From contig NZ_JAUOTO010000004.1 of assembly GCF_030546645.1 (NCBI RefSeq), positions 310,001-374,000 of the forward strand: a stretch of DNA of 64,000 nucleotides, given 5' to 3'. Below are positions 21,770 through 36,641 of the stretch, in pieces; position 1 is the stretch's first letter, and every line of letters begins with the position of its first letter. Under the pieces are notes generated by a model, which did no database searches, was not told the origin of the DNA, and was given only the letters and a program-made list of their open reading frames with translations. The DNA comes from Flavitalea plasmicola. GTDB lineage: Bacteria; Bacteroidota; Bacteroidia; Chitinophagales; Chitinophagaceae. The position numbers and the translations under genes are program-made.

Positions 21770-23047
21770 CTATACTAGATAGCTGAACAGCGTGTCATTC
21801 TTGTTCAGCTCCGTATAGGATACATTGTACCTCTCCATGTTGTTCAAAAGGGTCCGATAATCTTCTTTGTTGGTCAGCTCGACGCCTACCAGGGCGGGGG
21901 CTGTGTCTTTGTTGTGTTTTTGCATGTACTCGAAGCGGGTGATATCGTCGCCGGGTCCCAGGACATGGTTGACAAATTCTTTCAGCGCTCCCGGGCGTTG
22001 GGAGAAGCTGATCAGGAAATAGTGTTTCAGCCCTTCATACTGGAGGGACCTTTCCTTGATCTCCTGCATGCGATCGATGTCGTTGTTGCTACCGCTGACG
22101 ATACAGACGACGGTCTTGCCTTTGATGGCGTCGGCATAGTCGTCCAGGGCCGCGATGCTGAGGGCGCCCGCCGGTTCGACGACGATGGCGTCTTCGTTAT
22201 ACAGCCGCAGGATGGTGGAGCATGCTTTTCCTTCCGGTACGAGGTGCATATCATCCAGCACTTCCCGGCAGATGGAGAAGGTGAGGTCGCCTACTCTTTT
22301 TACGGCGGCTCCGTCGACAAAGCGTTCGATGCTGCCGAGGGTTACCGGGTGACCTGCTTTGAGGGCCTCCGTCATGGAGGGAGCGCCTTCCGGCTCCAGG
22401 CCGATGATCTTCGTGCGGGGCGAGTATGTTTTGAAGAAAGTACCTACTCCGGAGGCAAGTCCTCCACCGCCAACGGGTACGAAGAGATAGTCTACTTCGG
22501 GCTCATCTTCCAGGATCTCTACGGCCACGGTACCCTGTCCTTCGATGATCTTTGGATCTTCGAAAGGGGGGATGAAGGTCATGCCGTTGGATCCGGTGTA
22601 TTCCCGGGCGGCTACGGCGCAGTCGTCGAAGGTGTCACCTGTGAGGACGATCTCGATATTACCCTCTCCGAACATCCTGGTCTGTGTGACCTTTTGTTTG
22701 GGGGTAATGCTGGGCATGAATACCACGCCTTTTACTCCCAGCTTGCGGCAGGAGTAGGCAAAGCCCTGTGCATGATTGCCTGCGCTGGCGCATACCACGC
22801 CTTTTTGCAATTGCGCGGCGGGCAGGCTGACCATCATGTTATAGGCTCCCCTTAACTTATAGGAACGTACGACCTGCAGGTCTTCTCTTTTGAGCAGGAC
22901 CCGGCAGCCGTATTTCCGGGAGAGGTTGTGATTATAGCTCAGGGGAGTCCTGGTGACTACTTTCTTTAATCTACCGGCGGCTGCGTGGAAGTCTAATTCC
23001 GGCGCCCCTGCTGGGGGCGCCGGGGGAAAAGATAACAAATTATGCAT
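21770..23047 (-). CDS. ilvA: Threonine deaminase (biosynthetic)
   Basis: 425 aa, PLP enzyme converting threonine to 2-oxobutyrate, the first committed step to isoleucine. PLP lysine in VVRSYKLRGAYN (Lys64), glycine-rich phosphate loop VPVGGGGLASG, and a C-terminal ACT-like domain (about 335-425, SFSQRPGALKEFVNHVLG) that would carry Ile feedback. The single regulatory domain matches the shorter IlvA class (E. coli has two, 514 aa). Last gene of the locus; its ATG overlaps the end of ilvC by 8 nt (ATGCATAA), implying translational coupling. Confidence 0.94.
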   Translation of the reverse strand: MHNLLSFPPAPPAGAPELDFHAAAGRLKKVVTRTPLSYNHNLSRKYGCRVLLKREDLQVVRSYKLRGAYNMMVSLPAAQLQKGVVCASAGNHAQGFAYSCRKLGVKGVVFMPSITPKQKVTQTRMFGEGNIEIVLTGDTFDDCAVAAREYTGSNGMTFIPPFEDPKIIEGQGTVAVEILEDEPEVDYLFVPVGGGGLASGVGTFFKTYSPRTKIIGLEPEGAPSMTEALKAGHPVTLGSIERFVDGAAVKRVGDLTFSICREVLDDMHLVPEGKACSTILRLYNEDAIVVEPAGALSIAALDDYADAIKGKTVVCIVSGSNNDIDRMQEIKERSLQYEGLKHYFLISFSQRPGALKEFVNHVLGPGDDITRFEYMQKHNKDTAPALVGVELTNKEDYRTLLNNMERYNVSYTELNKNDTLFSYLV

Positions 23048-24125
23048 TTACTGCTTCCTTCGATTGTTTTTGTGGTGCGGCCTGATTTTCGGGGCGGAGA
23101 CTTCTTACGGTCTTGCCTGCCTGCCACAGTTCGCTTTCGCGTAATTCTTTCAGCTCGGCTTCCAGCTTTTCGCGGTAGTCGGGCTGGCTATTGGAGTCGA
23201 TGGACCGTTGAGATTCCTTACCTGCGGCTACGCTTTCGTACAGCTCGGTGAAGACGGGGAGGGTAGCATCGCGGAACTTCTTCCACCAGTCCAGTGCGCC
23301 TCTTTGTGCGGTGGTAGAGCAGTTGGCATACATCCAGTCCATGCCGTTCTCTGCCACCAGGGGCATGAGGGATTGGGTCAGCTCTTCCACTGTCTCGTTG
23401 AAAGCTTCGGAAGGGGTGTGTCCTTTTTTACGTAATACTTCATATTGAGCGGCGAAGATCCCCTGAATGGCGCCCATCAACGTACCGCGTTCGCCTGTCA
23501 GGTCACTGAATACTTCTTTGCGGAAGTCTGTTTCGAACAGGTAGCCACTGCCGACGGCGATGCCCAGGGCGATGACGCGTTCTTTGGCTTTTCCTGTTGC
23601 GTCCTGGAAGATGGCGTAGCTGCTGTTGAGCCCGCGACCCTGGAGAAACATTCTTCTCAGGGAAGTGCCTGAACCTTTCGGGGCCACCAGGAATACGTCC
23701 ACGTCTTTGGGAGGAACGATCCCTGTCTGTTCGTTGAAGGTGATGCCGAAGCCGTGGGAGAAATACAAAGCTTTACCGGGTGTCAGGTGTTTTTTCACCG
23801 TGGGCCACAGCTGGATCTGGGCCGCATCGCTCAGCAGGTAGCAGATGATGGTGCCTTTTTCCAATGCTTCTTCGATATCGAACAGGGTCTGGCCGGGAAC
23901 GAAACCGTCTTTTACCGCCTTATCCCATGACTTGGAATTTTTCCGCTGGCCTACGATCACGTTGATACCGTTATCTTTTTGATTCAGCGACTGACCGGGT
24001 CCCTGGACGCCATAGCCGATGACGGCTACTACTTCATTTTTCAAAACCTGCTGGGCTTTGGCGAGGGGGAATTCTTCTCTTGTTACTACATTTTCTTCCA
24101 CGCCGCCGAAATTTAATTTTGCCAT
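23040..24125 (-). CDS. ilvC: Ketol-acid reductoisomerase
   Basis: 361 aa from ATG 24125 (MAKLNFGGVEENVV). A longer in-frame ORF to 24260 has a Ser/Arg/Asn-rich, non-homologous N-terminus and is rejected. Isomerises and reduces acetolactate or acetohydroxybutyrate with NADPH. Rossmann motif VAVIGYGVQGPGQSLNQ and substrate-domain residues in DLTGERGTLMGA and SEAFNETVEEL are present. Length is near the short class I enzymes plus a charged C-terminal tail rich in Glu and Lys. Lies 58 bp after ilvH and overlaps ilvA. Confidence 0.94.
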   Translation of the reverse strand: MAKLNFGGVEENVVTREEFPLAKAQQVLKNEVVAVIGYGVQGPGQSLNQKDNGINVIVGQRKNSKSWDKAVKDGFVPGQTLFDIEEALEKGTIICYLLSDAAQIQLWPTVKKHLTPGKALYFSHGFGITFNEQTGIVPPKDVDVFLVAPKGSGTSLRRMFLQGRGLNSSYAIFQDATGKAKERVIALGIAVGSGYLFETDFRKEVFSDLTGERGTLMGAIQGIFAAQYEVLRKKGHTPSEAFNETVEELTQSLMPLVAENGMDWMYANCSTTAQRGALDWWKKFRDATLPVFTELYESVAAGKESQRSIDSNSQPDYREKLEAELKELRESELWQAGKTVRSLRPENQAAPQKQSKEAVNA

Positions 24126-24183: not shown

Positions 24184-24780
24184 TTACATCGTGAATACTT
24201 CGTCCTGTTTGTCGAGGAATTCGTTCTCGACGACCTCTTCGCTGGGCTCCGTCGATTCAAATTCTTTCAGCTTTTCGTGGAAGCCGTGGCTGTCCTTGAT
24301 GATGGCGATGCGGGCGCTTCTTACGAACTCGATGAGGCCATAAGGTTCCAGCACCTCCACCAGCTTGTCCGTCTCTTCCCTTTGTCCTGTCGTTTCGAAG
24401 ACGGTGTAGTCCTTCCGGATCACTACGGCACGAGCCCCGTATTCGCGCAACAGCCGTTCGACCTTTACTTTCTCGGCTATTTCCTCGGTGGATACTTTAT
24501 AGAGGGCCATTTCCTGCCAGATGATCTCTTCATTCGTGTTGTAGTAGGCTTTCAGGATATCTACCTGTTTTTCTATCTGGCGGCAGAGCTTTCTTACCAC
24601 TTCCTCCGTTTCGTTGATGACGATGGTGAAACGGTGGATGCCTTCCACTTCGGAGGGAGAGGTGTTCAGGCTCTCGACGTTGATCTTACGGCGGGAGAAC
24701 AGGATGGCGATGCGGTTAAGCAGGCCGATCTGGTTTTCCGTGTAGACGGTGATGGTGTATTGCTGCTTATTTGGATTCAT
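24184..24780 (-). CDS. ilvH: Acetolactate synthase small (regulatory) subunit
   Basis: 198 aa from ATG 24780 (MNPNKQQYTITVYTENQIGLLNRIAILFSRRKINVESL). The ACT domain (about 8-80) with NQIGLLNRI is the valine-binding region that confers feedback on IlvB. An upstream ATG at 24816 would add 12 residues encoded entirely by the heptad repeat at 24788-24819, so it is taken as non-coding. Separated from its partner ilvB by a methyltransferase gene, whereas the two subunits are usually adjacent. Confidence 0.93.
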   Translation of the reverse strand: MNPNKQQYTITVYTENQIGLLNRIAILFSRRKINVESLNTSPSEVEGIHRFTIVINETEEVVRKLCRQIEKQVDILKAYYNTNEEIIWQEMALYKVSTEEIAEKVKVERLLREYGARAVVIRKDYTVFETTGQREETDKLVEVLEPYGLIEFVRSARIAIIKDSHGFHEKLKEFESTEPSEEVVENEFLDKQDEVFTM

Positions 24781-24787
24781 ATTTTTG

Positions 24788-24819
24788 AGCTGCAAGCTGC
24801 GAGCCTCAAGCTGCAAGCC
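24788..24819. repeat. AGCTNCA heptad repeat, copy 1 (single arm)
   Basis: Units AGCTGCA, AGCTGCG, AGCCTCA, AGCTGCA and AGCC in 7-nt register, followed by TTTTTAGGTGTTTA, a core also seen in copy 2. Lies between the methyltransferase stop and ilvH start. Confidence 0.85.
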
Positions 24820-24834
24820 TGACTTTTTAGGTGT

Positions 24835-25608
24835 TTATTGTTTGATTGCTTCTATTCTCAGTCTTTTATAGTTGCCGTACCATTTGTGGTTGCGGTAGTT
24901 CGTGGGTTTTACCGCTGCCTGGATCTCTTCGAGCACGGGGTCGATATCCTGTTCGGGAATATTCTTAAAAAAAGCGTTGCCGAACATTCTTATCCAGTCC
25001 TTGATGCCATTTTCCGTATCCTGCAGTTCCGTCGGCCTGTCGAAATGGGAGGCATAGTTGATCCGATAGCCTTTCCTTTCCAGCAGGGAGGTGTATTCCC
25101 CCAGGGAGGGGAAGTACCACAGCTGTTGCGTTGCGTTGTGATAGTATCCGTGCCTGGTGAGGACTTTACGGGTATTGACCACGATGTCTTCCACGTTGCC
25201 TTTTCCGCCCATTTCCAATACCAGGCGACCGCCGGGGCGCAGGTGATGGGTGATGCAGTCGATGGCCGCCTCTTTATCCAGCACCCAGTGCAGGACCGCA
25301 TTCGAAAATACGGCGTCGAAGAGCTGGTTGAACTGGAAGTCCGTGGCGTTCATGACACGGAAGTCGATGTCCGGAAAGATAGCGGAGGCCTTTTCTATCA
25401 TGGGCGCGGAGCTATCGATGCCTATCACCCGTGCACCTGTGAGGGAGATCTGGTGGGTCAGGTGTCCTGTGCCGCAGCCCAGGTCCAGGATCCTTTCACC
25501 TGCCTGCGGGGCCAGCATGCTGATGAGGTCCTCGCCATATTTGAAGACAAACGAGTGTTTGTCGTCGTAGAGGCTGGCATTCCATTTTATCGTTGGCGTC
25601 CTGGACAT
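24835..25608 (-). CDS. SAM-dependent class I methyltransferase (trans-aconitate methyltransferase-like)
   Basis: 257 aa with a full class I fold: motif I ILDLGCGTGHLTHQI (about 40-54) binding SAM, acidic residue at the end of beta2 in VIGIDSSAPMIEKA, motif II DAVFSNAVLHWV, and post-motif LRPGGRLVLEMGG. The overall pattern (NASLYDDKHSFVFKYGEDLI at the start, RLRIEAIKQ at the end) recalls trans-aconitate or malonyl-ACP-type methyltransferases; the substrate cannot be read from sequence. It has no known role in branched-chain synthesis. Flanked on both sides by heptad-repeat copies 1 and 2, which suggests that it entered an ilvB-ilvH pair. Confidence 0.85.
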   Translation of the reverse strand: MSRTPTIKWNASLYDDKHSFVFKYGEDLISMLAPQAGERILDLGCGTGHLTHQISLTGARVIGIDSSAPMIEKASAIFPDIDFRVMNATDFQFNQLFDAVFSNAVLHWVLDKEAAIDCITHHLRPGGRLVLEMGGKGNVEDIVVNTRKVLTRHGYYHNATQQLWYFPSLGEYTSLLERKGYRINYASHFDRPTELQDTENGIKDWIRMFGNAFFKNIPEQDIDPVLEEIQAAVKPTNYRNHKWYGNYKRLRIEAIKQ

Positions 25609-25613
25609 TTGAT

Positions 25614-25712
25614 AGCGTCAAGCTGTCAGCTGCAAGCTGCAAGCTTGGTTTTATTAGGTGTTTAATGTTTATTTAAGTCCGGCTTGTAGCTTGAAGCTTG
25701 TCGCTTGCAGCT
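25614..25712. repeat. AGCTNCA heptad repeat, copy 2 (two inverted arms, hairpin)
   Basis: Left arm units AGCGTCA, AGCTGTC, AGCTGCA, AGCTGCA (25614-25641). Right arm, read on the minus strand, AGCTGCA, AGCGACA, AGCTTCA, AGCTACA, AGCC (25681-25712). They are separated by an A/T-rich core with TTTTATTAGGTGTTTA. An adjoining hairpin TAAAGCC-GAA-GGCTTTA (25714-25730) overlaps the ilvB stop. Confidence 0.85.
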
Positions 25713-25727: not shown

Positions 25728-27494
25728 TTATTTAAGTCTGATCTCACTAACGCTGCAACCCTGCGGCACCATTGGGAATACATTGTTCTCTTTACCTACG
25801 AAAACTTCCAGCAGGTAGGATCCTTTATGGTCGAGCATGGCCTTTATCGCATTCGGGAGGTCTTCTCTTTTTTCGATGCTTTGTCCGGCGATGCCATAGC
25901 CTTTTGCCACCATGACGAAGTCGGGGCTGGCGATGTCCACGAAAGAGTAGCGTTTGTCGTTGAAGAGCTGCTGCCACTGGCGTACCATGCCCAGGAAGCG
26001 GTTGTTCAGGATCAGGATCTTTACATCTAATTCACTTTGCATGATGGTGCCCAGTTCCTGGAGGGTCATCTGGAAGCTACCATCGCCGCAGATGGCGACG
26101 ACCGTACGATCGGGAGCCCCGAATTTTGCGCCGATGGCAGCCGGAAGGCCGAAGCCCATGGTGCCGAGGCCGCCGGAAGTAACGTTGCTGCGGGACTGTT
26201 TGAATTCGGCATAGCGGCAGGCTACCATCTGGTGCTGACCTACGTCCGTGACGATGACGGCGTCGCCGTCGGTGAACTGGTTGAGCACTTTTATTACCTC
26301 TCCCATCGTCATTTGTTCGGTGGTGGGGTTGAGCTCTTCCTTAATGACGGCGTCCACTTCTTCTTTATAATAGTCTTTGAACCTTTTCAGCCATTCGGGA
26401 TATGTCTTTTTTTCGACCAGTTCTGTCAGCAGGGGGAGGGTCTCTTTACAGTCGCCCCACACCGGGATGGTCGATTTTACATTCTTGTCGATCTCGGCGG
26501 GATCGATGTCCAGGTGGACGACCTGTGCCTGTTTGGCATATTTATCCAGGCGTCCCGTCACGCGATCGTCGAAGCGCATGCCGATGGCGATGAGGACGTC
26601 GCATTCATTGGTGAGGACATTGGGACCATAGTTGCCGTGCATACCCAGCATGCCCACGTTGAGCGGGTGGTCCGTGGACAGGGCGCTGAGGCCCAATAAT
26701 GTCCAGGCTGCGGGGATGCCGCTCTTTTCAACGAAGGCCTGGAATTCCTTTTCGGCCTTGCCGAGGATAACGCCTTGTCCGAAGAGGATGAAGGGGCGTT
26801 GGGCCTGGTTGATGAGTTGGGCTGCCTTTTCGATGTATTCCTTGCGTACGATGGGTTTGGGGCGGTAGCTGCGGATATGGCTGCATTTCTTATACCCTTC
26901 GTAGCTGAATTTCTGGATCTGTGCGTTCTTCGTGATATCGATGAGGACAGGGCCGGGGCGTCCGCTGCCGGCGATATAAAATGCTTTGGCCAATACAGCA
27001 GGGATCTCCGTCGCGTCCGTCACCTGATAATTCCATTTGGTGATGGGGGTGGTGATGTTGATGACATCCGTCTCCTGAAAGGCGTCGGTGCCCAAGAGGT
27101 GGGCGAAGACCTGGCCGGTGATACATACCAGGGGAGTGCTGTCGATCATGGCGTCTGCAAGACCAGTGACCAGGTTAGTAGCCCCCGGGCCGCTGGTGGC
27201 GAATACGACGCCTGTCCTACCGGAAGTACGGGCATAACCCTGTGCAGCGTGTATGCCACCCTGTTCGTGCCGGACGAGGATGTGCTTCAGCTTCTCCTGG
27301 TAGTCGTACAGGGCGTCATAGATAGGCATGATGGCGCCGCCGGGGTAACCGAAGATCGTGTCTACGCCTTCTTCCAGGAAAGCTTCCAGGACGGCGGCCG
27401 AGCCGTTGATCTCCCGGGGTGCGGGGGCTTTGCTTTTGGAAGCCGCCTTGGGCTTTGATGGAGTGGGTACGGGTGTTGTTGTTGCGTTGCTCAT
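25728..27494 (-). CDS. ilvB: Acetolactate synthase large (catalytic) subunit
   Basis: 588 aa ThDP enzyme; condenses pyruvate with pyruvate or 2-oxobutyrate. After a Pro/Ser/Lys-rich N-terminal tail of about 30 residues, IFGYPGGAIMPIYDAL and RHEQGGIHAAQGYAR carry the ThDP-activating Glu. The central FAD-type domain has HGNYGPNVL and GMRFDDRVTGR, and the C-terminal ThDP/Mg motif is GDGSFQMTLQELGTI ending in ILNN. Length is typical. Third gene after the ilv attenuator; hairpins lie at both ends (27568-27615 upstream, 25714-25730 at its stop). Confidence 0.96.
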   Translation of the reverse strand: MSNATTTPVPTPSKPKAASKSKAPAPREINGSAAVLEAFLEEGVDTIFGYPGGAIMPIYDALYDYQEKLKHILVRHEQGGIHAAQGYARTSGRTGVVFATSGPGATNLVTGLADAMIDSTPLVCITGQVFAHLLGTDAFQETDVINITTPITKWNYQVTDATEIPAVLAKAFYIAGSGRPGPVLIDITKNAQIQKFSYEGYKKCSHIRSYRPKPIVRKEYIEKAAQLINQAQRPFILFGQGVILGKAEKEFQAFVEKSGIPAAWTLLGLSALSTDHPLNVGMLGMHGNYGPNVLTNECDVLIAIGMRFDDRVTGRLDKYAKQAQVVHLDIDPAEIDKNVKSTIPVWGDCKETLPLLTELVEKKTYPEWLKRFKDYYKEEVDAVIKEELNPTTEQMTMGEVIKVLNQFTDGDAVIVTDVGQHQMVACRYAEFKQSRSNVTSGGLGTMGFGLPAAIGAKFGAPDRTVVAICGDGSFQMTLQELGTIMQSELDVKILILNNRFLGMVRQWQQLFNDKRYSFVDIASPDFVMVAKGYGIAGQSIEKREDLPNAIKAMLDHKGSYLLEVFVGKENNVFPMVPQGCSVSEIRLK

Positions 27495-27567: not shown

Positions 27568-27615
27568 GATATTGCGCCGGGGGTATTTTTCCGCGGACCC
27601 CCGAGGCGCAATATC
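27568..27615. repeat. Long inverted repeat between ilvD and ilvB
   Basis: GATATTGCGCC plus GGGGG (27568-27583) pairs with CCCCC, a 2-nt bulge and GGCGCAATATC (27598-27615): 16 paired positions around a 14-nt loop. The right arm touches the ilvD stop codon. There is no T run after it on the minus strand, so it looks like an mRNA stability or processing hairpin rather than a terminator. Confidence 0.7.
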
Positions 27616-29293
27616 AAAATTCATCGGTTACACATCCTTCGGCTGCGTTCTTTACCTGTCTGGCATATTTGTAAAGGATGCCTTTCGTCGCTTTCAGCGG
27701 CGGTTGCTGCCATGCCGCTTTGCGTTTGGCCAATTCTTCAGGCGCTACTTTCAGGGTGATGGTATTCTTTGTGGCGTCCAGCTCTATGATGTCATCGTCA
27801 TGGACCAGGGCGATGGCGCCTCCTTCATAGGCTTCGGGAGTGATGTGTCCTACGACGAAGCCGTGGGTGCCGCCGCTGAACCGGCCGTCGGTGATGAGGG
27901 CGATGCTTTTTCCCAGGCCGGCGCCGATGAGGGCGGAGGTGGGTTTCAGCATTTCAGGCATGCCGGGGGCGCCTTTGGGGCCTACGTGGCGGATGACCAC
28001 TACGTCGCCTGCTTTTATCTTTCCGGTGTTGATACCATTGATCAGTTGATGTTCTCCGTCGAAGACTCTCGCGGGGCCTTCGAACCTTTCCCCTTCTTTA
28101 CCGCTGATCTTGGCTACGCTGCCGCCTTCTGCGAGGTTGCCGTAGAGGATCTGCAGGTGGCCGGTGGCTTTGATGGGTTTTTCCAGCGGGTAGATGATGT
28201 CCTGTGTTGTAAAATCGATGGCGGGGATGTCTGCGAGATTTTCGGCCAGTGTCTTACCTGTGACGGTGAGGCAATCTCCGTGCAGCAATCCTTTTTCCAG
28301 GAGATACTTCATCACGGCGGGGATGCCTCCGTGCTCGTGCAGGTCCTGCATGAGATATTTGCCACTGGGCTTGAAGTCGGCCAGTACGGGTATCTTATCG
28401 CTGATGGTCTGGAAGTCGTCCTGGGACAGGGGAACGTCGACGCTGCGGGCGATGGCCAGTAGATGCAGGACCGCGTTGGTGCTGCCACCCAGGACCATGA
28501 TGGTGGTGATGGCGTTCTCGAAGGCCTTGCGGGTCATGATATCCTTTGGCTTGATGTCTTTTTCCAGCAGGACGAGGATGGCTTTGCCGGCATCGTAGCA
28601 TTCTTTCTTTTTGTCTTCGCTGAGTGCGGGATTGGAGGAGGAATAGGGGAGGCTCATGCCCAGCGCTTCGGCTGCTGCGGCCATGGTATTGGCCGTGTAC
28701 ATGCCTCCGCAGGCGCCCGCTCCCGGGCAGGAGTTCATTACGATGCCTTTGAAGTCGGCATCGCTCAGTTTGCCGGCGATCTTTTGCCCCAGGGCTTCGA
28801 AGGAGGAGACGATGTTAAGGTCCTGACCTTTATAATGTCCGGGGGCGATGGTACCGCCATAGACCATGATGGAGGGCCTGTTAAGCCGGCCCATGGCCAT
28901 CAGTGATCCCGGCATGTTCTTGTCGCAGCCGGGCAGGGCGATGAGCGCGTCATAGTATTGAGCGCCGCAGACTGCCTCGATGGAGTCGGCGATGATGTCG
29001 CGGCTGACCAGGGAGAAGCGCATGCCGTCGGTGCCGTTGCTCATGCCGTCGCTGACGCCGATGGTATGGAAGATGAGCCCTACCAGATCATTGTCCCACA
29101 CCCCTTCTTTTACCACTTTTGCCAGGTCGTTGAGGTGCATGTTGCAGGTGTTGCCGTCGTAGCCCATGCTGGCGATGCCCACCTGCGCTTTTTTGAGATC
29201 GTCGTCTGTCAATCCAATGCCATACAACATGGCCTGTGCGGCCGGTTGCGTCGGGTCCTGTGTGAGTGTCTTGCTGTATTTGTTAAGTTCCAT
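27614..29293 (-). CDS. ilvD: Dihydroxy-acid dehydratase
   Basis: 559 aa; dehydrates dihydroxy acids to the 2-oxo acids of Ile and Val synthesis. Cysteines for the Fe-S cluster are in [15 protein letters not shown] and [18 protein letters not shown]. Downstream are the usual [17 protein letters not shown] and the C-terminal [21 protein letters not shown]. Length is normal. Follows ilvE after 48 bp containing heptad-repeat copy 3. The start ATG 29293 ([10 protein letters not shown]) agrees with the family. Confidence 0.96.
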
Positions 29294-29301
29294 TTCTTTT
29301 T

Positions 29302-29336
29302 AGCTACAAGCTACAAGCTGCAAGCTTCAAGCTTGG
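29302..29336. repeat. AGCTNCA heptad repeat, copy 3 (single arm)
   Basis: Units AGCTACA, AGCTACA, AGCTGCA, AGCTTCA, AGCTTGG in exact 7-nt register, flanked by T runs. Fills the ilvE-ilvD gap. Confidence 0.85.
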
Positions 29337-29341
29337 TTTTT

Positions 29342-30241
29342 TTATGCTGTTGTTAATTGATCTTGTTTTTCTATGACCAGGTCTTTATAGGTCTGTTGAA
29401 TTTTACGGCCGAGGGTATCTTTCCAGGGGACGGGGAATTTCGTGTCGTCGATGGATTCCCAGCCTATGACCTCTGCCGCGGTGCCGCAGAAGAAGGCAGC
29501 GTCTGCCGATCTCAGCTGGCGGATGGTGAACTGGCCTTCTTCGACGGGTATGCCGAGCTCGCTGCATATTTCGAGGACCGTTGCTCTTGTGATACCGGGG
29601 AGGATGTTGCCTTTTTCCGGTGTGAAGAGCCTGCCATCCTTTTCGAAGAACATATTTGCGCCCGGTCCTTCGGCGATGTTGCCATTCATATCCGTGAGGA
29701 GGGCTTCGTCGAAGCCTTTCCCTTTGGCTTCCTGGCTGGCCAGGATGGAGTTGACGTAGTGACCGGATGCCTTTGCTTCTATTTTAAAACCTTTAGGGTT
29801 AGGGCGTTGGAAAGAGGATGTCATGACCTTGAGCAGCTTCTCGCCCAGGAAGGGAGCCATCTCCCAGGTCTGGATAACCGTAAAGGATTCCGTGTTGGGG
29901 TTGAAGCTCATATTGGCGGGCCCGTATACGACGGGGCGGATATAAGCGTCCTGGAGGTGATTCTTTTCGAGAATATCGTAAGTGGCTTTGATGAGGGTAT
30001 CTGCGTCGTAGGTGTAAGGCATATTCAATGCTTCGGCGGACCTGCGGAGCCGATGGTAATGTTCTTCGGCCTTAAAGATCTTCGTGGCGCCTGCGGCGGT
30101 GCGATAGGATCGGATGCCTTCGAAGACGGCGTAGCCGTAGTGAAGGGACTGACCATAGAGATCAGTTTTGGCTTCCGAAGCCTTTAATATCCTGCCGTCC
30201 TGCCAGAGAACGGTGTGTTCATTGTAGTATGCCATAATCAT
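29342..30241 (-). CDS. ilvE: Branched-chain amino acid aminotransferase
   Basis: 299 aa, fold-type IV PLP enzyme that transfers the amino group from glutamate in the last step to Ile, Val and Leu. Motifs: LHYGYAVFEGIRSY, PLP lysine in KIEAKASGHYVNSIL, EGPGANMFFEKDG, LPGITRATVLEI and FFCGTAAEVIG. Start either ATG 30241 (MIMAYYNEHTV) or 30235 (MAYYNEHTV); the second better fits homologues. First structural gene behind the Val/Ile leader and terminator, so its expression should depend on attenuation. Confidence 0.94.
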   Translation of the reverse strand: MIMAYYNEHTVLWQDGRILKASEAKTDLYGQSLHYGYAVFEGIRSYRTAAGATKIFKAEEHYHRLRRSAEALNMPYTYDADTLIKATYDILEKNHLQDAYIRPVVYGPANMSFNPNTESFTVIQTWEMAPFLGEKLLKVMTSSFQRPNPKGFKIEAKASGHYVNSILASQEAKGKGFDEALLTDMNGNIAEGPGANMFFEKDGRLFTPEKGNILPGITRATVLEICSELGIPVEEGQFTIRQLRSADAAFFCGTAAEVIGWESIDDTKFPVPWKDTLGRKIQQTYKDLVIEKQDQLTTA

Positions 30242-30278
30242 TTGTTTTAAGAGTTGACGAGTCGTGATAAAACAAGAA

Positions 30279-30299
30279 ACCCGCCTTTTGGAGGCGGGT
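30279..30299 (-). terminator. Attenuator terminator of the ilv operon
   Basis: On the minus strand ACCCGCC (30293-30299), 7-nt loop, GGCGGGT (30279-30285), then TTCTTGTTTT. It lies 31 nt after the leader peptide stop and 38 nt before ilvE. Its 5' side, ACCCGCCTCC (30290-30299), can instead pair at 9 of 10 positions with GGAGGAGGGT (30335-30344) at the end of the leader ORF, giving a mutually exclusive antiterminator. Confidence 0.88.
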
Positions 30300-30329
30300 C
30301 GCTGGTATTTTTAGTTTGTATTATTTACA

Positions 30330-30431
30330 TTACCACCCTCCTCCCTGGATCGCAGGAATAATAATCACCACCACCACCACTACTATGGAGGTTAGCCGGG
30401 AGATAACATTATTTAGACTGCGCTGGGCCAT
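30330..30431 (-). CDS. Val/Ile-rich ilv leader peptide
   Basis: 33 codons from ATG 30431 to TAA 30330-30332. The core reads SIVVVVVVIIIPAIQ: six consecutive Val codons (GTA then five GTG) and three Ile codons, preceded by two Leu (CTA) and one Thr codon. The peptide ends QGGGW; its GGAGGAGGGTGG coding sequence is the antiterminator strand. A ribosome stalled for Val or Ile would leave that strand free to block the terminator; one reaching the stop would cover it. This is the arrangement of ilv attenuators in enteric bacteria, here with unrelated sequence. Confidence 0.88.
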   Translation of the reverse strand: MAQRSLNNVISRLTSIVVVVVVIIIPAIQGGGW

Positions 30432-30450
30432 GAAGGATGTATTCTTACCA

Positions 30451-30481
30451 CGAATATACTTCCGCCATTCCAATAAACAAA
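30451..30481 (-). promoter_or_regulatory. Bacteroidetes-type promoter of the ilv leader
   Basis: Minus strand TTTG (30478-30481), 19-nt spacer, TATATTCG (30451-30458). The start codon of the leader lies 19 nt beyond the -7 element, so the 5' untranslated region is short. Confidence 0.6.
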
Positions 30482-30494
30482 GAACTTTTTTTTT

Positions 30495-30563
30495 AGCTAC
30501 AAGCTTCAAGCTGCAAGCTGCAAGCGTTTATTTAGGTCTTCTTGCGGCTTGTGGCTTGCAGCT
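30495..30563. repeat. AGCTNCA heptad repeat, copy 4 (two inverted arms, hairpin)
   Basis: Left arm AGCTACA, AGCTTCA, AGCTGCA, AGCTGCA, AGCG (30495-30526); right arm, minus strand, AGCTGCA, AGCCACA, AGCCGCA (30541-30563). A/T-rich core with TTTATTTAGGTCTT. Overlaps the last bases of leuB and directly precedes the ilv promoter. Confidence 0.85.
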
Positions 30564-31677
30564 ATATGATCGTCGACTTCCGCAACTCGATATTCTCTCT
30601 GTGGATGTCGCCTGGTATTTTGCCGCCCACGTAATCGCTGATCAGCTCGCCGATGGTGGACGTGAAATAGAAATTCACCGGATCGATGTCTTTGGTGACG
30701 AAGCTATTCTGCAGCGTCCAGTTGGCGGCCTCTCTTACTCTGCCGGCCTCTTTGTGCAGGCCGAAGTGGTCCAGCAGCATAGCGGCGGAGAGGATACTTC
30801 CCAGGGGGTTGGCGATGTCTTTGCCTGTGGCCTGGGGGTATGATCCGTGGATGGGTTCGAAAAGGGCGGCACCTTTACCGATGGAAGCGGAGGGGAGCAG
30901 GCCCAGTGAACCGCTGATGACGCTGGCTTCATCGCTGAGGATATCCCCGAACATATTTTCCGTGAGGATCACGTCAAATTGTTTCGGGTTGAGAATGATC
31001 TGCATGGCGGCATTGTCCACGAAGAGGAAATCGACCTTTACGTCGCTGTATTGTCTGGCGATGTCCTGTACGACCTTTCGCCACAGGCGGGAGGTTTCCA
31101 GTACGTTGGCCTTGTCCACGAGGGTCAGTCTTTTTCTGCGCTGCTGGGCCTGGCGGAAGGCTAGGTGTGCGATGCGCTCGATCTCTTCGCGGGTGTAGGT
31201 GCAATCGTCCATGGCCTGGTTGCCGTCGGCGGATGTCTCTTTCTTGCCGAAATAAATGCCGCCCGTCAGTTCGCGAAAAATGATGAAGTCCACGTCTTCA
31301 AGGATCTTTGCCTTGAGGGGGGACAAATGTTGTAAGGCCGGATAGGTGGTCACCGGCCTGATATTGGCAAACAATTGTAATGACTTCCTTAGTTTGAGCA
31401 AACCTTGCTCGGGCCGCACTTTTGCGGAGGGATCATTGTCGTATTTCGGGTGGCCGATGGCGCCGAAGAGGATGGCATCGCTGTTGAGGGCTGCTTCGAT
31501 GGTCTCATCGGGCAGGGGGGTACCGGTCTTGTCGATGGCGTCGGCTCCCATCAGGCAATACTTATAGGTGAATTCGTGCCCACCGTGCTCGGCGACGGCG
31601 TTCAGCACTTTGACGGCTTGCCGGGTGACTTCGGGCCCGATGCCGTCTCCTTCTATGACAACGATGTTCTTCTGCAT
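30562..31677 (-). CDS. leuB: 3-isopropylmalate dehydrogenase
   Basis: 371 aa; NAD-dependent oxidative decarboxylation of 3-isopropylmalate. Signature VVIEGDGIGPEVTRQAVKVL at the N-terminus, substrate-binding Arg in RPEQGLLKLRKSL, FRELTGGIYFG, and the metal/NAD region DILSDEASVISGSLGLLPSAS followed by EPIHGSYPQATGKDIANP. Length is normal. Last gene of the leuACDB block, 33 bp after leuD; its stop lies inside heptad-repeat copy 4. Confidence 0.96.
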   Translation of the reverse strand: MQKNIVVIEGDGIGPEVTRQAVKVLNAVAEHGGHEFTYKYCLMGADAIDKTGTPLPDETIEAALNSDAILFGAIGHPKYDNDPSAKVRPEQGLLKLRKSLQLFANIRPVTTYPALQHLSPLKAKILEDVDFIIFRELTGGIYFGKKETSADGNQAMDDCTYTREEIERIAHLAFRQAQQRRKRLTLVDKANVLETSRLWRKVVQDIARQYSDVKVDFLFVDNAAMQIILNPKQFDVILTENMFGDILSDEASVISGSLGLLPSASIGKGAALFEPIHGSYPQATGKDIANPLGSILSAAMLLDHFGLHKEAGRVREAANWTLQNSFVTKDIDPVNFYFTSTIGELISDYVGGKIPGDIHRENIELRKSTII

Positions 31678-31710
31678 ACAATCAGGGTTTGGGTATGGGT
31701 TTAATGATAT

Positions 31711-32307
31711 TTATGCGTGCCTATTTTCAAAAGTTTCAATTTCATCCCGGATGCTGAGCAAATAGTCAATGTCGTCATAACCGTTCAGCAGGCAGGTCTT
31801 TTTATAATTGTTGATTTCAAATCTTTCTTTGCGGCCCGTGGGTTCCAGGGTAATGGTCTGGTCGGGCAGGTTGATCGTGATGAGCGCAGACGGATTGTTC
31901 TTTATGGCGCTGAAAATTTCTTTGAGCAGTCCTTCACTGACAGTGACGGGCAGAAGGAAATTATTCAGGGCGTTGTTCTTAAAGATGTCGGCGAAGAAGC
32001 TGCTGATCACGACGTCAAAACCTGCATCTTTGATGGCCCATGCGGCATGCTCGCGACTGGACCCGCAGCCGAAGTTCTTGCCGGCCACGAGGATCTTCCC
32101 TTGATAAGCAGGATCGTTCAATGCAAATTCTTTTTTCGGGCTGCCGTCGCTGTTGTAGCGCCAGTCGCGGAATAAGTTTTCACCGAACCCATCACGGCTG
32201 GTGGCTTTCAGGAAGCGGGCAGGGATGATCTGGTCGGTGTCCACGTTCTCCATATCAACCGGGACGGCGGTGGTACTGACGATATGTATGGATTGGTTGC
32301 TCATCAT
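31711..32307 (-). CDS. leuD: 3-isopropylmalate dehydratase small subunit
   Basis: 198 aa; swivel domain that with LeuC isomerises 2- to 3-isopropylmalate. Motifs [21 protein letters not shown] and the substrate loop [18 protein letters not shown] are complete. Start ATG 32307 or the adjacent ATG 32304. Seven bp after leuC, consistent with translational coupling of the two subunits. Confidence 0.95.
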
Positions 32308-32314
32308 TTCTTTA

Positions 32315-33712
32315 TTATAGGTATTCCCTCACATCTGCGACCTCTCCCGTGATGGCTGCGACTGCAGCTGTCAGCGGGCTGGCGAGGAGGGTGCGGGCGC
32401 TGGGCCCTTGTCTCCCTTCGAAGTTGCGGTTGGATGTGGAGATACAGTATTTTCCTGCGGGGATCTTATCCTCATTCATTGCCAGGCAGGCAGAGCAGCC
32501 GGGCTGACGAAGGAAGAAGCCGGCAGCTTCAAAAATTTTGTCGAGGCCTTCTTCAATGGCTTGCTTTTCCACCTGTTTGGAGCCGGGCACGATCCATGCC
32601 TCGATGTCTTTCGACTTTTTGCGCCCTTTTACGAAGGCGGCGACCATGCGGAGGTCCTCGATGCGGGAGTTGGTGCAGCTGCCGATGAAAACGTAATCCA
32701 CTTTTTTCCCTTTGATCGCGGAGCCTGCTTTCAGACCCATATAATCCAGGGATTTGAGATAGGAGGGTTTTTCCGTTTCCGTGATCTCTGTTTCGGAGGG
32801 GATGTGGCCGGTGACGCTGATGCCCATACCGGGGTTGGTGCCGTAGGTGATCATGGGTTCGATGGTGGCAGCATCGATGTGGATCTCCTTATCGAATACG
32901 GCGTCGGTGTCGGAGAAGAGTTCTTTCCACCCGGCCAGCGCGGTGTCCCATTCGGCGCCTTTGGGAGCGAATGCGCGGTCTTTGAGATAGTCGAAGGTCG
33001 TATCGTCGGGAGCGATCATGCCGCCGCGGGCGCCCATTTCGATACTCATATTGCAGATGGTCATACGGGCTTCCATGGACAGCTGACGGATGGCCGAGCC
33101 GGAAAATTCCACGAAGTAGCCGGTGGCTCCGCTGGCGGAGATCTGTGCGATGATGTAGAGGATGATGTCTTTGGAGACCACGCCTTTATTGAGGGCGCCT
33201 TCCACATTGATGCGCATGAGCTTCGGCCGGCTCTGCAGGAGGCATTGGGTGGCCATTACCATTTCCACTTCGCTGGTGCCGATGCCGAAAGCGATGGCGC
33301 CGAAGGCTCCGTGGGTGGAGGTATGGCTATCGCCGCATACGATGGTCATGCCGGGGCGGGTGATACCCAACTCGGGGCCTATGACGTGAACGATGCCCTG
33401 GTAGGGGTGACCGAGACCGTAGAGCTCTACACCATGTTTTGCGCAGTTGGCTATCAGCTGCTGCACCTGCATCCTGGACAGTTCGTCCTTGATGGGGAGG
33501 TGCTGATCGACGGTGGGGACGTTGTGGTCGGCGGTGGCTACGATCTGGCGGGGGCGGAAGACCTCCAGCCCTCTTTTCTCCAGCCCTTTGAATGCCTGGG
33601 GGCTGGTGACCTCATGAATAAAGTGTTTATCGATGTATAGCACCGAAGGCCCACCGTCGATGGTCTTTACCACATGCTGGTCCCAGATCTTTTCAAATAA
33701 TGTTTTTGCCAT
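32315..33712 (-). CDS. leuC: 3-isopropylmalate dehydratase large subunit
   Basis: 465 aa aconitase-family subunit with a 4Fe-4S cluster. Visible: [44 protein letters not shown], cluster ligands in [15 protein letters not shown] and [16 protein letters not shown], and [13 protein letters not shown] near the end. Size is standard. Nine bp separate it from leuA upstream. Confidence 0.96.
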
Positions 33713-33721
33713 ATGGTTTCG

Positions 33722-34891
33722 TTACGCGGTAACTGCTGCCGCGTTGTAAGCTTTTGCCAGTTCATTCAGGTCTGCTTCCATCACTTCCTTTTTGGTGTCG
33801 GCCACTTTCAGGAATCGTTCGTACAGGACGTCGATGTCGTTGCGTGTAAAGGAATAGCCGAGCTTCTGGAAGCGGAAAGCCAGGGCGCTGCGGCCGCTGC
33901 GGGCTGTCAGCACGATCTTGGAGCCATCTGCGCCTACTTCATCCGGATTGATGATCTCATAGGTGGAAGCGTCTTTCAGGAATCCATCCTGGTGGATACC
34001 GGAAGAGTGAGAAAAAGCGTTGGCCCCTACGATCGCTTTGTTAGGCTGCACCGGCATACGCATGGTGTCGGAAACCAGGCGGCTGATGGGGTTGAGCTTT
34101 TCGGCTTTGATATTGGTATAGAATCCCAGCTGTTTGTGTTGTTTGATCACCATGACCACTTCTTCCAGTGAGGTGTTGCCGGCGCGTTCGCCCAGTCCGT
34201 TGATGGTGCACTCGATCTGGCGGGCGCCGCCGCGGATACCTGCGATAGAGTTGGCGGTGGCCAGACCCAGGTCGTTGTGGCAGTGGCAGGACAGGATGGC
34301 TTTATCGACATTCTTCACATTGTTGACCAGATAGGCGATCTTCTCACCGTATTGGTCGGGGAGGCAATAGCCGGTGGTATCGGGGATATTGACTACGGTG
34401 GCGCCGGCGGCGATAACGGCTTCGACTACGCGGGCCAGGTATTCATTGTCGGTGCGGCCGGCGTCCTCCGCAAAGAATTCCACGTCATCGACCAGATTGC
34501 GGGCCCATTTCACGGCTTGAACAGCGCGTTGAAGGATCTCTTCTCGGGTGGAATTAAATTTACTTTTTATGTGAAAATCGGAAGTGCCAATGCCTGTGTG
34601 TATGCGGGGCCTTTTCGCATGCCGGAGGGCTTCCGCGGCCACTTCGATGTCTTTCTGCACGGCCCGGGTGAGGCCGCAGACGGTGACGTCCTTCACTATT
34701 TTGGCGATCTCTTCCACGGAATGGAAGTCGCCGGGGCTGGAGATGGGGAAGCCAGCCTCGATGATATCCACGCCCAGGGCTTCCAACTGTTGGGCCAGCT
34801 CGACCTTTTCGGTGGTGTTGAGCTTGCAGCCGGGTACCTGTTCGCCATCGCGGAGGGTGGTATCGAAAATGTAGATCTTTTTGTCGGACAT
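33722..34891 (-). CDS. leuA: 2-isopropylmalate synthase, short form without regulatory domain
   Basis: 389 aa from ATG 34891 ([21 protein letters not shown]). Condenses acetyl-CoA with 2-oxoisovalerate, first step to leucine. The TIM-barrel motifs [26 protein letters not shown] (metal His pair) and [15 protein letters not shown] are present, followed by a helical subdomain (about 300-385). The C-terminal allosteric domain of 500-aa LeuA proteins, which binds leucine, is missing. An in-frame ATG at 34969 would add a 26-residue Leu-rich segment ([12 protein letters not shown]); a -7-like TAATTTCG (34971-34978) lies just upstream, so that ATG is probably not transcribed. A homocitrate synthase-like role is less likely given the leuCDB neighbours. 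Confidence 0.92.
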
Positions 34892-35090
34892 AGATTTTTT
34901 TAAAAGGGTTAGCAAAAAGGAGAGGGCGGATGTATCTTTGAGGGCCCTATTCCGGAAATAACCTTCCATCCGAAATTAGCTTTCTTTATTTTCGGTTTAA
35001 AATCATAATTAGCATGGTTTTACACGGTTTAATAGGGGCTATTTCGTCTGAAACCCACTGCTGTAAAGGATTTTAAAGTTTTAAATTACG

Positions 35091-36641
35091 ATGCCCAACC
35101 GATCGTCAGACGCCCTGTTCCAACTTATTAAGTCTCTGGAAAAGTCAGAGAAACGCAATTTCAAGCTGTATATCAAGCGAAATTCGGCCAGTGAGGACCT
35201 GCAGAGCATACAACTATTTGATGCTCTGGACAAAATGGAGGAGTACGATGAGGCGCAACTGTTAAAAAAAAGCAAAAGCCTTAAGAAGCAGCAGCTGTCG
35301 AATGCCAAAGCCCATTTATACAGGGAGATCCTTTCCAGCCTGCGGCTGATCCGGCAGGAGGAAAACATTGATATTCAGCTACATGAGCAGCTGGACCATG
35401 CCCGTATCCTCTATAACAAGGGGCTATACCTGCAAAGTCTGAAGGTGCTGGACAGGATCAAGGAGAATGCCAAGGAGCATAACCAGATCACCTTTTTGCT
35501 GCAGGTACTGTTTTTCGAAAAGACGATCGAATCGCTGCACATCACGCGTAGTATGCAGGACAGGGCTGACCGCCTGACGGCGGAAGTGGATGAAGTGAAC
35601 GATCATCTCAGGCTGGTGAGCACCTTGTCCAACCTCTCGCTGCAGCTATACAGCTGGTATATCCGTAACGGGGTAGCCCGTAATGAGAAGGACGAGATTG
35701 CCGTGCAGGAGTTCTTCGAAACGCATCTTCCTGCGGACCTCAGCGGCTGTACGGGGTTTTATGAGAAACTGTACCAGTACCAGAGCTTCTGCTGGTATGC
35801 TTTTATCCGGCAGGATTTTCTTCTTTACTACCGATATACGCAGAAATGGGTGGACCTGTTCGAGAAGGAGCCTTTTATGTTGGGGATCGAGACCGCTCAT
35901 TACATCAAGGGGATGCACAATTTGCTGGGGGCGCATTTCGACCTGCTGAACTATCCTAAATTCATAGAAACGCTTCGTCAATTCGAGGAGTTCTCCCATT
36001 CCGCCATTGTGACGGGCAATGTGAACAACCGGATCCAGACGTTTGTGTATCTCTATATTTCCAAGCTGAACAAGCATTTCCTGGATGGGACCTTTACGGA
36101 GGGGCTGGAGCTGGTGCCTTATATCGAAGAAAAGCTGCGGGAGTACTGGATCTACCTGGATCGTCACCGGATATTGGTCTTTTACTACAAGATAGCCTGT
36201 TTGTATTTTGGCAGCGGGGATTATGAGCGGACGATCGATTATCTGAATAAGATCATTAACTGGAAGGTGGATCTGCGGACGGACCTGCAGTGTTATTCGC
36301 GGCTGCTGCACCTGATCGCTCATTATGAGCTGGGCAATTATGGGCTGCTGGAGTACCTTATCAAGTCGGTGTATCGATTTATGGCCAAGATGGAGAATTT
36401 GAGCCTGGTGGAGGAAGAGATCTTCCGGTTTCTCAGGAAGTCGTTCAATCTCTCGCCGGACCGTATACGGCCTGAGCTGGAGAAATTGCTGGAGAAGCTG
36501 AAGAAGTATGAGAAGAACAGGTTTGAGACAAGGGCTTTTGTTTACCTGGATATTATTTCATGGCTGGAGAGCAAGGTGCGGAATGTGCCGGTGCAGGATG
36601 TGATCAGGGAGAAGTACCTGGAGGGGCATAGGAGGGGGTAA
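35091..36641 (+). CDS. Helical-repeat (TPR-like) protein of unknown function
   Basis: 516 aa, cytoplasmic by appearance, with no signal peptide or membrane segment. It begins SSDALFQLIKSLEKSEKRNFKLYIKR and continues as amphipathic helix pairs, for example ILYNKGLYLQSLKVLDRIKENAKEH and CLYFGSGDYERTIDYLNKII, which look like degenerate TPR units, ending in charged helices. I recall similar proteins as conserved hypotheticals in Bacteroidetes but cannot name a role. Divergent from leuA with about 200 bp between start codons. Confidence 0.75.
   Translation: MPNRSSDALFQLIKSLEKSEKRNFKLYIKRNSASEDLQSIQLFDALDKMEEYDEAQLLKKSKSLKKQQLSNAKAHLYREILSSLRLIRQEENIDIQLHEQLDHARILYNKGLYLQSLKVLDRIKENAKEHNQITFLLQVLFFEKTIESLHITRSMQDRADRLTAEVDEVNDHLRLVSTLSNLSLQLYSWYIRNGVARNEKDEIAVQEFFETHLPADLSGCTGFYEKLYQYQSFCWYAFIRQDFLLYYRYTQKWVDLFEKEPFMLGIETAHYIKGMHNLLGAHFDLLNYPKFIETLRQFEEFSHSAIVTGNVNNRIQTFVYLYISKLNKHFLDGTFTEGLELVPYIEEKLREYWIYLDRHRILVFYYKIACLYFGSGDYERTIDYLNKIINWKVDLRTDLQCYSRLLHLIAHYELGNYGLLEYLIKSVYRFMAKMENLSLVEEEIFRFLRKSFNLSPDRIRPELEKLLEKLKKYEKNRFETRAFVYLDIISWLESKVRNVPVQDVIREKYLEGHRRG

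Follow-up and report, generated by a model that had tools for sequence, protein, structure and literature searches.

The 64,000-nucleotide stretch of DNA analysed here (the window) comes from the 8.7-Mb genome of Flavitalea plasmicola, whose closest named relatives, judged by IlvE, are Puia and other Chitinophagaceae. Its minus strand carries leuACDB and an ilvEDB-(x)-HCA operon, with a short leader region between leuB and ilvE (Table 1). The homologues of ilvE align from residue 3, so translation of this gene probably starts at ATG 30235 rather than at 30241. The ilv operon also contains, between ilvB and ilvH, a class I methyltransferase gene (24835-25608), with a weak likeness to trans-aconitate methyltransferase that falls below the NCBIfam cut-offs of the matches listed. 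LeuA (33722-34891) is a 389-aa protein whose match covers just the first three quarters of the LeuA profile; the C-terminal regulatory domain of longer LeuA proteins seems to be absent. An inverted-repeat element (AGCTGCAAGCTGCAAGC ... GCTTGTGGCTTGCAGCT) occurs between operon genes at 30509-30563 and 25628-25712, and about 55 further partial copies scattered across the genome were found with this region as the query; the element is REP- or MITE-like.

Table 1 Features of the ilv leader, the ilv operon and the related His leader.
Feature	Coordinates	Strand	Basis
ilvA, threonine ammonia-lyase	21770-23047	minus	TIGR02079 above cut-off
ilvC (5' limit approximate)	23040-24125	minus	TIGR00465 above cut-off
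ilvH/ilvN, acetolactate synthase small subunit	24184-24816	minus	TIGR00119 above cut-off
ilvB, acetolactate synthase large subunit	25728-27494	minus	TIGR00118 above cut-off
ilvD	27614-29293	minus	TIGR00110 above cut-off
ilvE, first structural gene	29342-30235	minus	TIGR01122 (ilvE_I) above cut-off
Intrinsic terminator hairpin	30278-30300	minus	U-rich run to about 30269
Region 3, ACCCGCCUCC, terminator 5' arm and partner of region 2	30290-30299	minus	Sequence, terminator listing, duplex
UACC, possible antiterminator extension	30304-30307	minus	Sequence; putative helix visible in fold
Leader peptide ORF, 33 codons and TAA	30330-30431	minus	ATG 30431, TAA 30330
Region 2, GGAGGAGGGU, antiterminator 5' strand within the last leader codons	30335-30344	minus	Pairing with terminator arm
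Control block, Val17-22 and Ile23-25	30357-30383	minus	Sequence
CCUUC just 5' of the leader AUG, candidate protector strand 1	30432-30436	minus	Complementary to leader-end GGAGG
Candidate promoter, TTTG-N19-TATATTCG	30451-30481	minus	Exact sequence match; Bacteroidota -33/-7 type
leuB, final gene of leuACDB, directly 5' of the leader	30562-31677	minus	TIGR00169 above cut-off
His leader before hisG	L244, about 1487-1624 (G000:C14:812654)		Sequence

The earlier note had read the region upstream of ilvE as a complete ilv attenuator, and every part that it named, from promoter through leader ORF, Val/Ile block and region 2 to terminator, was found where it had placed it. The candidate promoter consists of TTTG (30481-30478), a 19-nt spacer and TATATTCG (30458-30451), all on the minus strand. 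The leader ORF encodes MAQRSLNNVISRLTSIVVVVVVIIIPAIQGGGW, in which Val17-22 are written as GTA and five GTG codons and Ile23-25 as three ATT codons. Together with the preceding Ile16 these form a run of 10 Val/Ile codons; it is the only run of at least seven in the six frames of the window, and the longest run in 40 simulated windows of the same composition was 7. Region 2 (GGAGGAGGGT as DNA, 30344-30335) matches ACCCGCCTCC (30299-30290) at 9 of 10 pairing positions, which confirms the pairing that the note had proposed, and the corresponding RNA duplex has a computed energy of -17.0 kcal/mol. GGUA at 30334-30331 could possibly pair in addition with UACC at 30304-30307, giving a longer antiterminator. 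The terminator stem (30300-30278) has 9 pairs, 6 of them GC, and a CCAAA loop followed by TTTCTTGTTTT; it ranks first among the 13 terminator-like sites listed in 29200-35200.

The same listing gives no minus-strand terminator between leuB and the leader, so transcripts reading through from leu would meet the same switch. The earlier claim that the ilv genes are sensed separately from leuACDB stands only in part: the leader has a promoter motif of its own, but no minus-strand terminator was found after leuB. Upstream of leuA itself we saw no Leu-rich run, and no minus-strand terminator is listed there.

In 57 of 61 Chitinophagaceae ilvE loci, ilvE is preceded by a terminator and a leader ORF that contains a Val/Ile block, although these sequences are related and the counts are not independent. 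Among the loci with a leader, Pro directly follows the Val/Ile block in 45 and Gly-Gly occurs near the leader end in 51, while CCGCCT of the terminator arm is kept in 51 of 57. Upstream of the leader, a TATNTTNN-type box is present in 55 of 57 and GTTCTTT or GCTCTTT in 53 of 57. The arrangement in the window, with the leader between a conserved promoter motif and the first structural gene, recurs in these loci, the first gene being ilvD in some relatives. For an unbiased view, 149 Chitinophagaceae genomes were scanned with a DNA pattern for Val3-Ile3-Pro, with the reversed pattern as a control. The scan hit 39 sites, spread over 38 genomes, and the reversed pattern about 12; the 30 loci retrieved comprised 26 leaders (16 before ilvE and 10 before ilvD) and 4 chance matches. 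The 10 that precede ilvD are from genomes whose operon does not begin with ilvE, which indicates that the leader belongs to the start of the ilv operon, not to one gene. Similar leaders with different peptides precede ilvD or ilvE in Flavobacterium-type, Pedobacter, Cyclobacteriaceae and other Bacteroidota loci, and no leader was seen at some distant Bacteroidota ilvD loci; the distant loci were partly picked for having a leader, so that no prevalence in the phylum can be derived from them.

We considered whether the conserved element could be an RNA-only switch, such as a riboswitch or a T-box-like element, with an ORF that is not translated. The terminator and antiterminator are indeed strongly conserved. 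The window, however, contains no match to a known riboswitch or T-box family in Rfam, and no Rfam leader family (Trp, His, Leu, Thr leaders and others) reaches its gathering threshold there: Trp_leader scores 13.4 bits where 41 would be needed, and even the best of the weak matches are no better than chance. The substitution pattern also speaks against it. Across the last seven control codons of 52 Chitinophagaceae leaders, differences at codon positions 1, 2 and 3 are 0.31, 0.06 and 0.49, so the second position is nearly fixed and the third varies. The block is, moreover, tied to the ilv operon. We consider an RNA-only switch highly improbable.

The control codons are themselves biased: Ile is written as ATT in 209 of 234 codons of Chitinophagaceae control blocks, compared with 331 of 923 in ilvE (odds ratio 15), and GTA is avoided in the blocks. 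In the window's own genes ATT accounts for 26 of 349 Ile codons, most of the others being ATC. This bias and the codon-position pattern point to selection on the leader ORF as a coding sequence. A survey of tRNA genes for the ATT/GTG bias found both tRNA-Val TAC and tRNA-Val GAC and provided no explanation.

A coding signal of this kind, together with the hydrophobic character of the peptide, would also suit a small hydrophobic membrane protein whose gene is merely separated from ilvE by the terminator. We computed the best duplex between leader end and terminator 5' arm for 92 loci and sorted the arms into 12 sequence classes. When each class is represented by a single locus, native pairing averages -13.3 kcal/mol compared with -9.0 (sd 0.8) for permuted combinations, and none of 20,000 permutations paired region 2 and arm as well. 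Individual loci follow the same pattern: L020 reads region 2 in another frame (REVV) yet keeps the RNA, the leader of L035 stops before region 2 yet keeps the RNA, and L052 and L054 combine a different terminator arm, CCTTCCTCC, with a matching leader end, GGAGGA. These loci show that it is the RNA rather than the peptide that is kept at the leader end. A membrane protein also fits poorly with the peptides themselves, which vary in length and at most positions outside the Val/Ile block, lose the Gly-rich end by replacement (L020) or truncation (L035), and in other Bacteroidota are unrelated except for the Val/Ile codons. With the leader end co-varying with the terminator, we give the small-protein explanation hardly any weight, and return to the attenuator.

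The distance of region 2 from the control codons varies less than its distance from the stop codon. From the last Val/Ile run to the start of region 2 the median distance is 11.5 nt (sd 3.8; interquartile range 10-12). Measured from the stop codon, the positions of region 2 span -20 to +8 (median -12, sd 5.6), and in several distant loci (L078, L079, L096, L117 and L137) region 2 overlaps the stop codon or comes after it. The window has a gap of 12 nt. Some outliers with a spacing of 2-6 nt carry extra Val, Ile or Leu codons after the main block, and a few Flavobacterium loci have a gap of 22-23 nt. Given the usual extent of a ribosome footprint, a ribosome holding the last Ile codon in its A site would have its edge just before a region 2 so placed, and one at the stop codon would cover it. 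Folding of partial transcripts with a masked ribosome agrees with this expectation: with the ribosome at codons 17-26, about 8-9 pairs between regions 2 and 3 form before the terminator 3' arm emerges, and with the ribosome at codon 28 or later there are 0-2. At equilibrium, the terminator of the complete transcript is the most stable structure in every ribosome-mask state. The switch would therefore have to be kinetic, and attenuators in general depend on kinetics.

The locus thus combines the features of a Yanofsky-type attenuator: a leader rich in cognate codons, an intrinsic terminator before the first gene and a co-varying, mutually exclusive antiterminator. Sequence and comparison show directly these parts, their conservation in the family, the joint change of region 2 and arm, and the usual distance between control codons and region 2. 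On this basis the ilvEDB-(x)-HCA operon is very probably controlled by a classical ribosome-mediated transcription attenuator, and we infer its operation as follows. RNA polymerase would start at the leader promoter, and a ribosome would follow on the leader ORF. With plentiful Val-tRNA and Ile-tRNA, the ribosome would reach the stop codon and cover region 2, the terminator would fold and the transcript would end. With Val or Ile in short supply, it would stall within the Val6-Ile3 block, with region 2 lying just beyond its leading edge. The free region 2 could then pair with the terminator 5' arm before the 3' arm is made, allowing transcription into ilvE. Of the refuting conditions named in the earlier note, the two that are open to computation came out in favour of this reading: a Val/Ile ORF is conserved before ilvE in the family and occurs before ilv operons of other Bacteroidota families, and leader end and arm change together. 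In the partial-transcript folds, stalls within the Val/Ile block permit the antiterminator while ribosomes further on abolish the pairing. The regular spacing supports the reading as well.

The attenuator may contain an active third element in the Chitinophagaceae. In their leader 5' UTRs, pyrimidines, often as CCTTC, predominate immediately ahead of the ATG and can pair with the GGAGG of region 2, so that CCUUC could act as a protector strand and keep the operon off until the leader is translated (superattenuation). In the window, the minimum free energy fold of the full leader pairs the CCUUC stretch with the leader end. In the family, pairing with region 2 is stronger for leader 5' UTRs (-11.3 kcal/mol) than for the 5' UTRs of ilvE at the same loci (-4.9 kcal/mol; p about 2e-9, uncorrected for relatedness), and against shuffled UTRs the excess is modest (mean z -1.24 in the Chitinophagaceae). 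Only 29% of Chitinophagaceae loci are individually at p<0.05, however, no signal between 5' UTR and region 2 is seen outside this family, and CCUUC could be conserved by descent. An active protector seems to us a real possibility, though somewhat short of an even chance.

The leader resembles that of the E. coli ilvL-ilvXGMEDA operon (NC_000913), MTALLRVISLVVISVVVIIIPPCGAALGRGKA, with which it has a VVVIIIP core in common. Both have a compact Val/Ile block written mostly with GTG and ATT codons, an intrinsic terminator before the operon and an antiterminator strand inside the leader ORF; in E. coli GUGCGGGG pairs with CCCCGCAC of the terminator arm (-17.7 kcal/mol). The pairing-region sequences differ, as does the geometry: in E. 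coli ilvL a gap of 4 nt separates the last Ile codon from region 2, whose start lies about 30 nt ahead of the stop, whereas both distances are 12 nt in the window. The common core is likely convergent, because Pro after the block is common in Chitinophagaceae and rare in the other Bacteroidota leaders compared. The oligo-GTG tract, the compact control block and the Gly-rich end that doubles as the antiterminator had been called unusual in the earlier note. This does not hold: all are ordinary in Chitinophagaceae, and ilvL shows both a comparable GTG/ATT block and an antiterminator within the ORF.

Our literature search turned up no work on ilv attenuators of Bacteroidota. Vitreschak et al. 2004 reportedly treated proteobacteria and some Bacteroidetes/Chlorobi. 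Within the same phylum as the window, the transcriptome of Flavobacterium psychrophilum gave strong indications of attenuation by leader peptides ahead of operons for amino-acid biosynthesis, the parts of that report available to us naming no ilv case and no structural rule (PMC9723704). In actinobacteria, a different phylum with a different first gene, short ORFs with Ile/Val/Leu runs and a terminator precede ilv genes as ilvB leaders (PMC1262725; C. glutamicum ilvBNC, PMC11857589). Changing the candidate control codons in S. coelicolor had no effect, a warning that sequence alone does not prove a response.

The F. plasmicola genome encodes a further leader of this layout: a His leader peptide, MKMTIHHHHHHFLPQG, with six His codons and a terminator, lies directly before hisG. 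Its region 2, GGUAGGCC, forms 8 bp with GGCUUACC of the terminator arm. The distance from the last His codon to region 2 is about 13 nt and, unlike in the ilv leader, region 2 straddles the stop codon. The His leader appears to be a second, analogous attenuator, one that would sense His. Bacteroidota ribosomes rely little on Shine-Dalgarno pairing. A broader idea, which we put forward tentatively and think rather unlikely, is that an ancient, compact attenuator design is common to the Bacteroidota. In it, a ribosome ruler would set region 2 at about 11-13 nt beyond the last control codon, independently of the sequence and of where the stop lies. Such a design would have been reused for His and, in Chitinophagaceae, coupled to the initiation region of the leader, letting ribosomes with little reliance on Shine-Dalgarno pairing use GGAGG as the antiterminator.

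The ilv leader, as judged from its sequence, is a real classical attenuator of the textbook kind and one well supported by comparison. It brings a well-supported ilv attenuator to a further phylum and identifies a leader gene before most ilvE-type operons of the large family Chitinophagaceae. The distance from control codon to antiterminator could serve both as a search rule and as a test of positioning by the ribosome edge.
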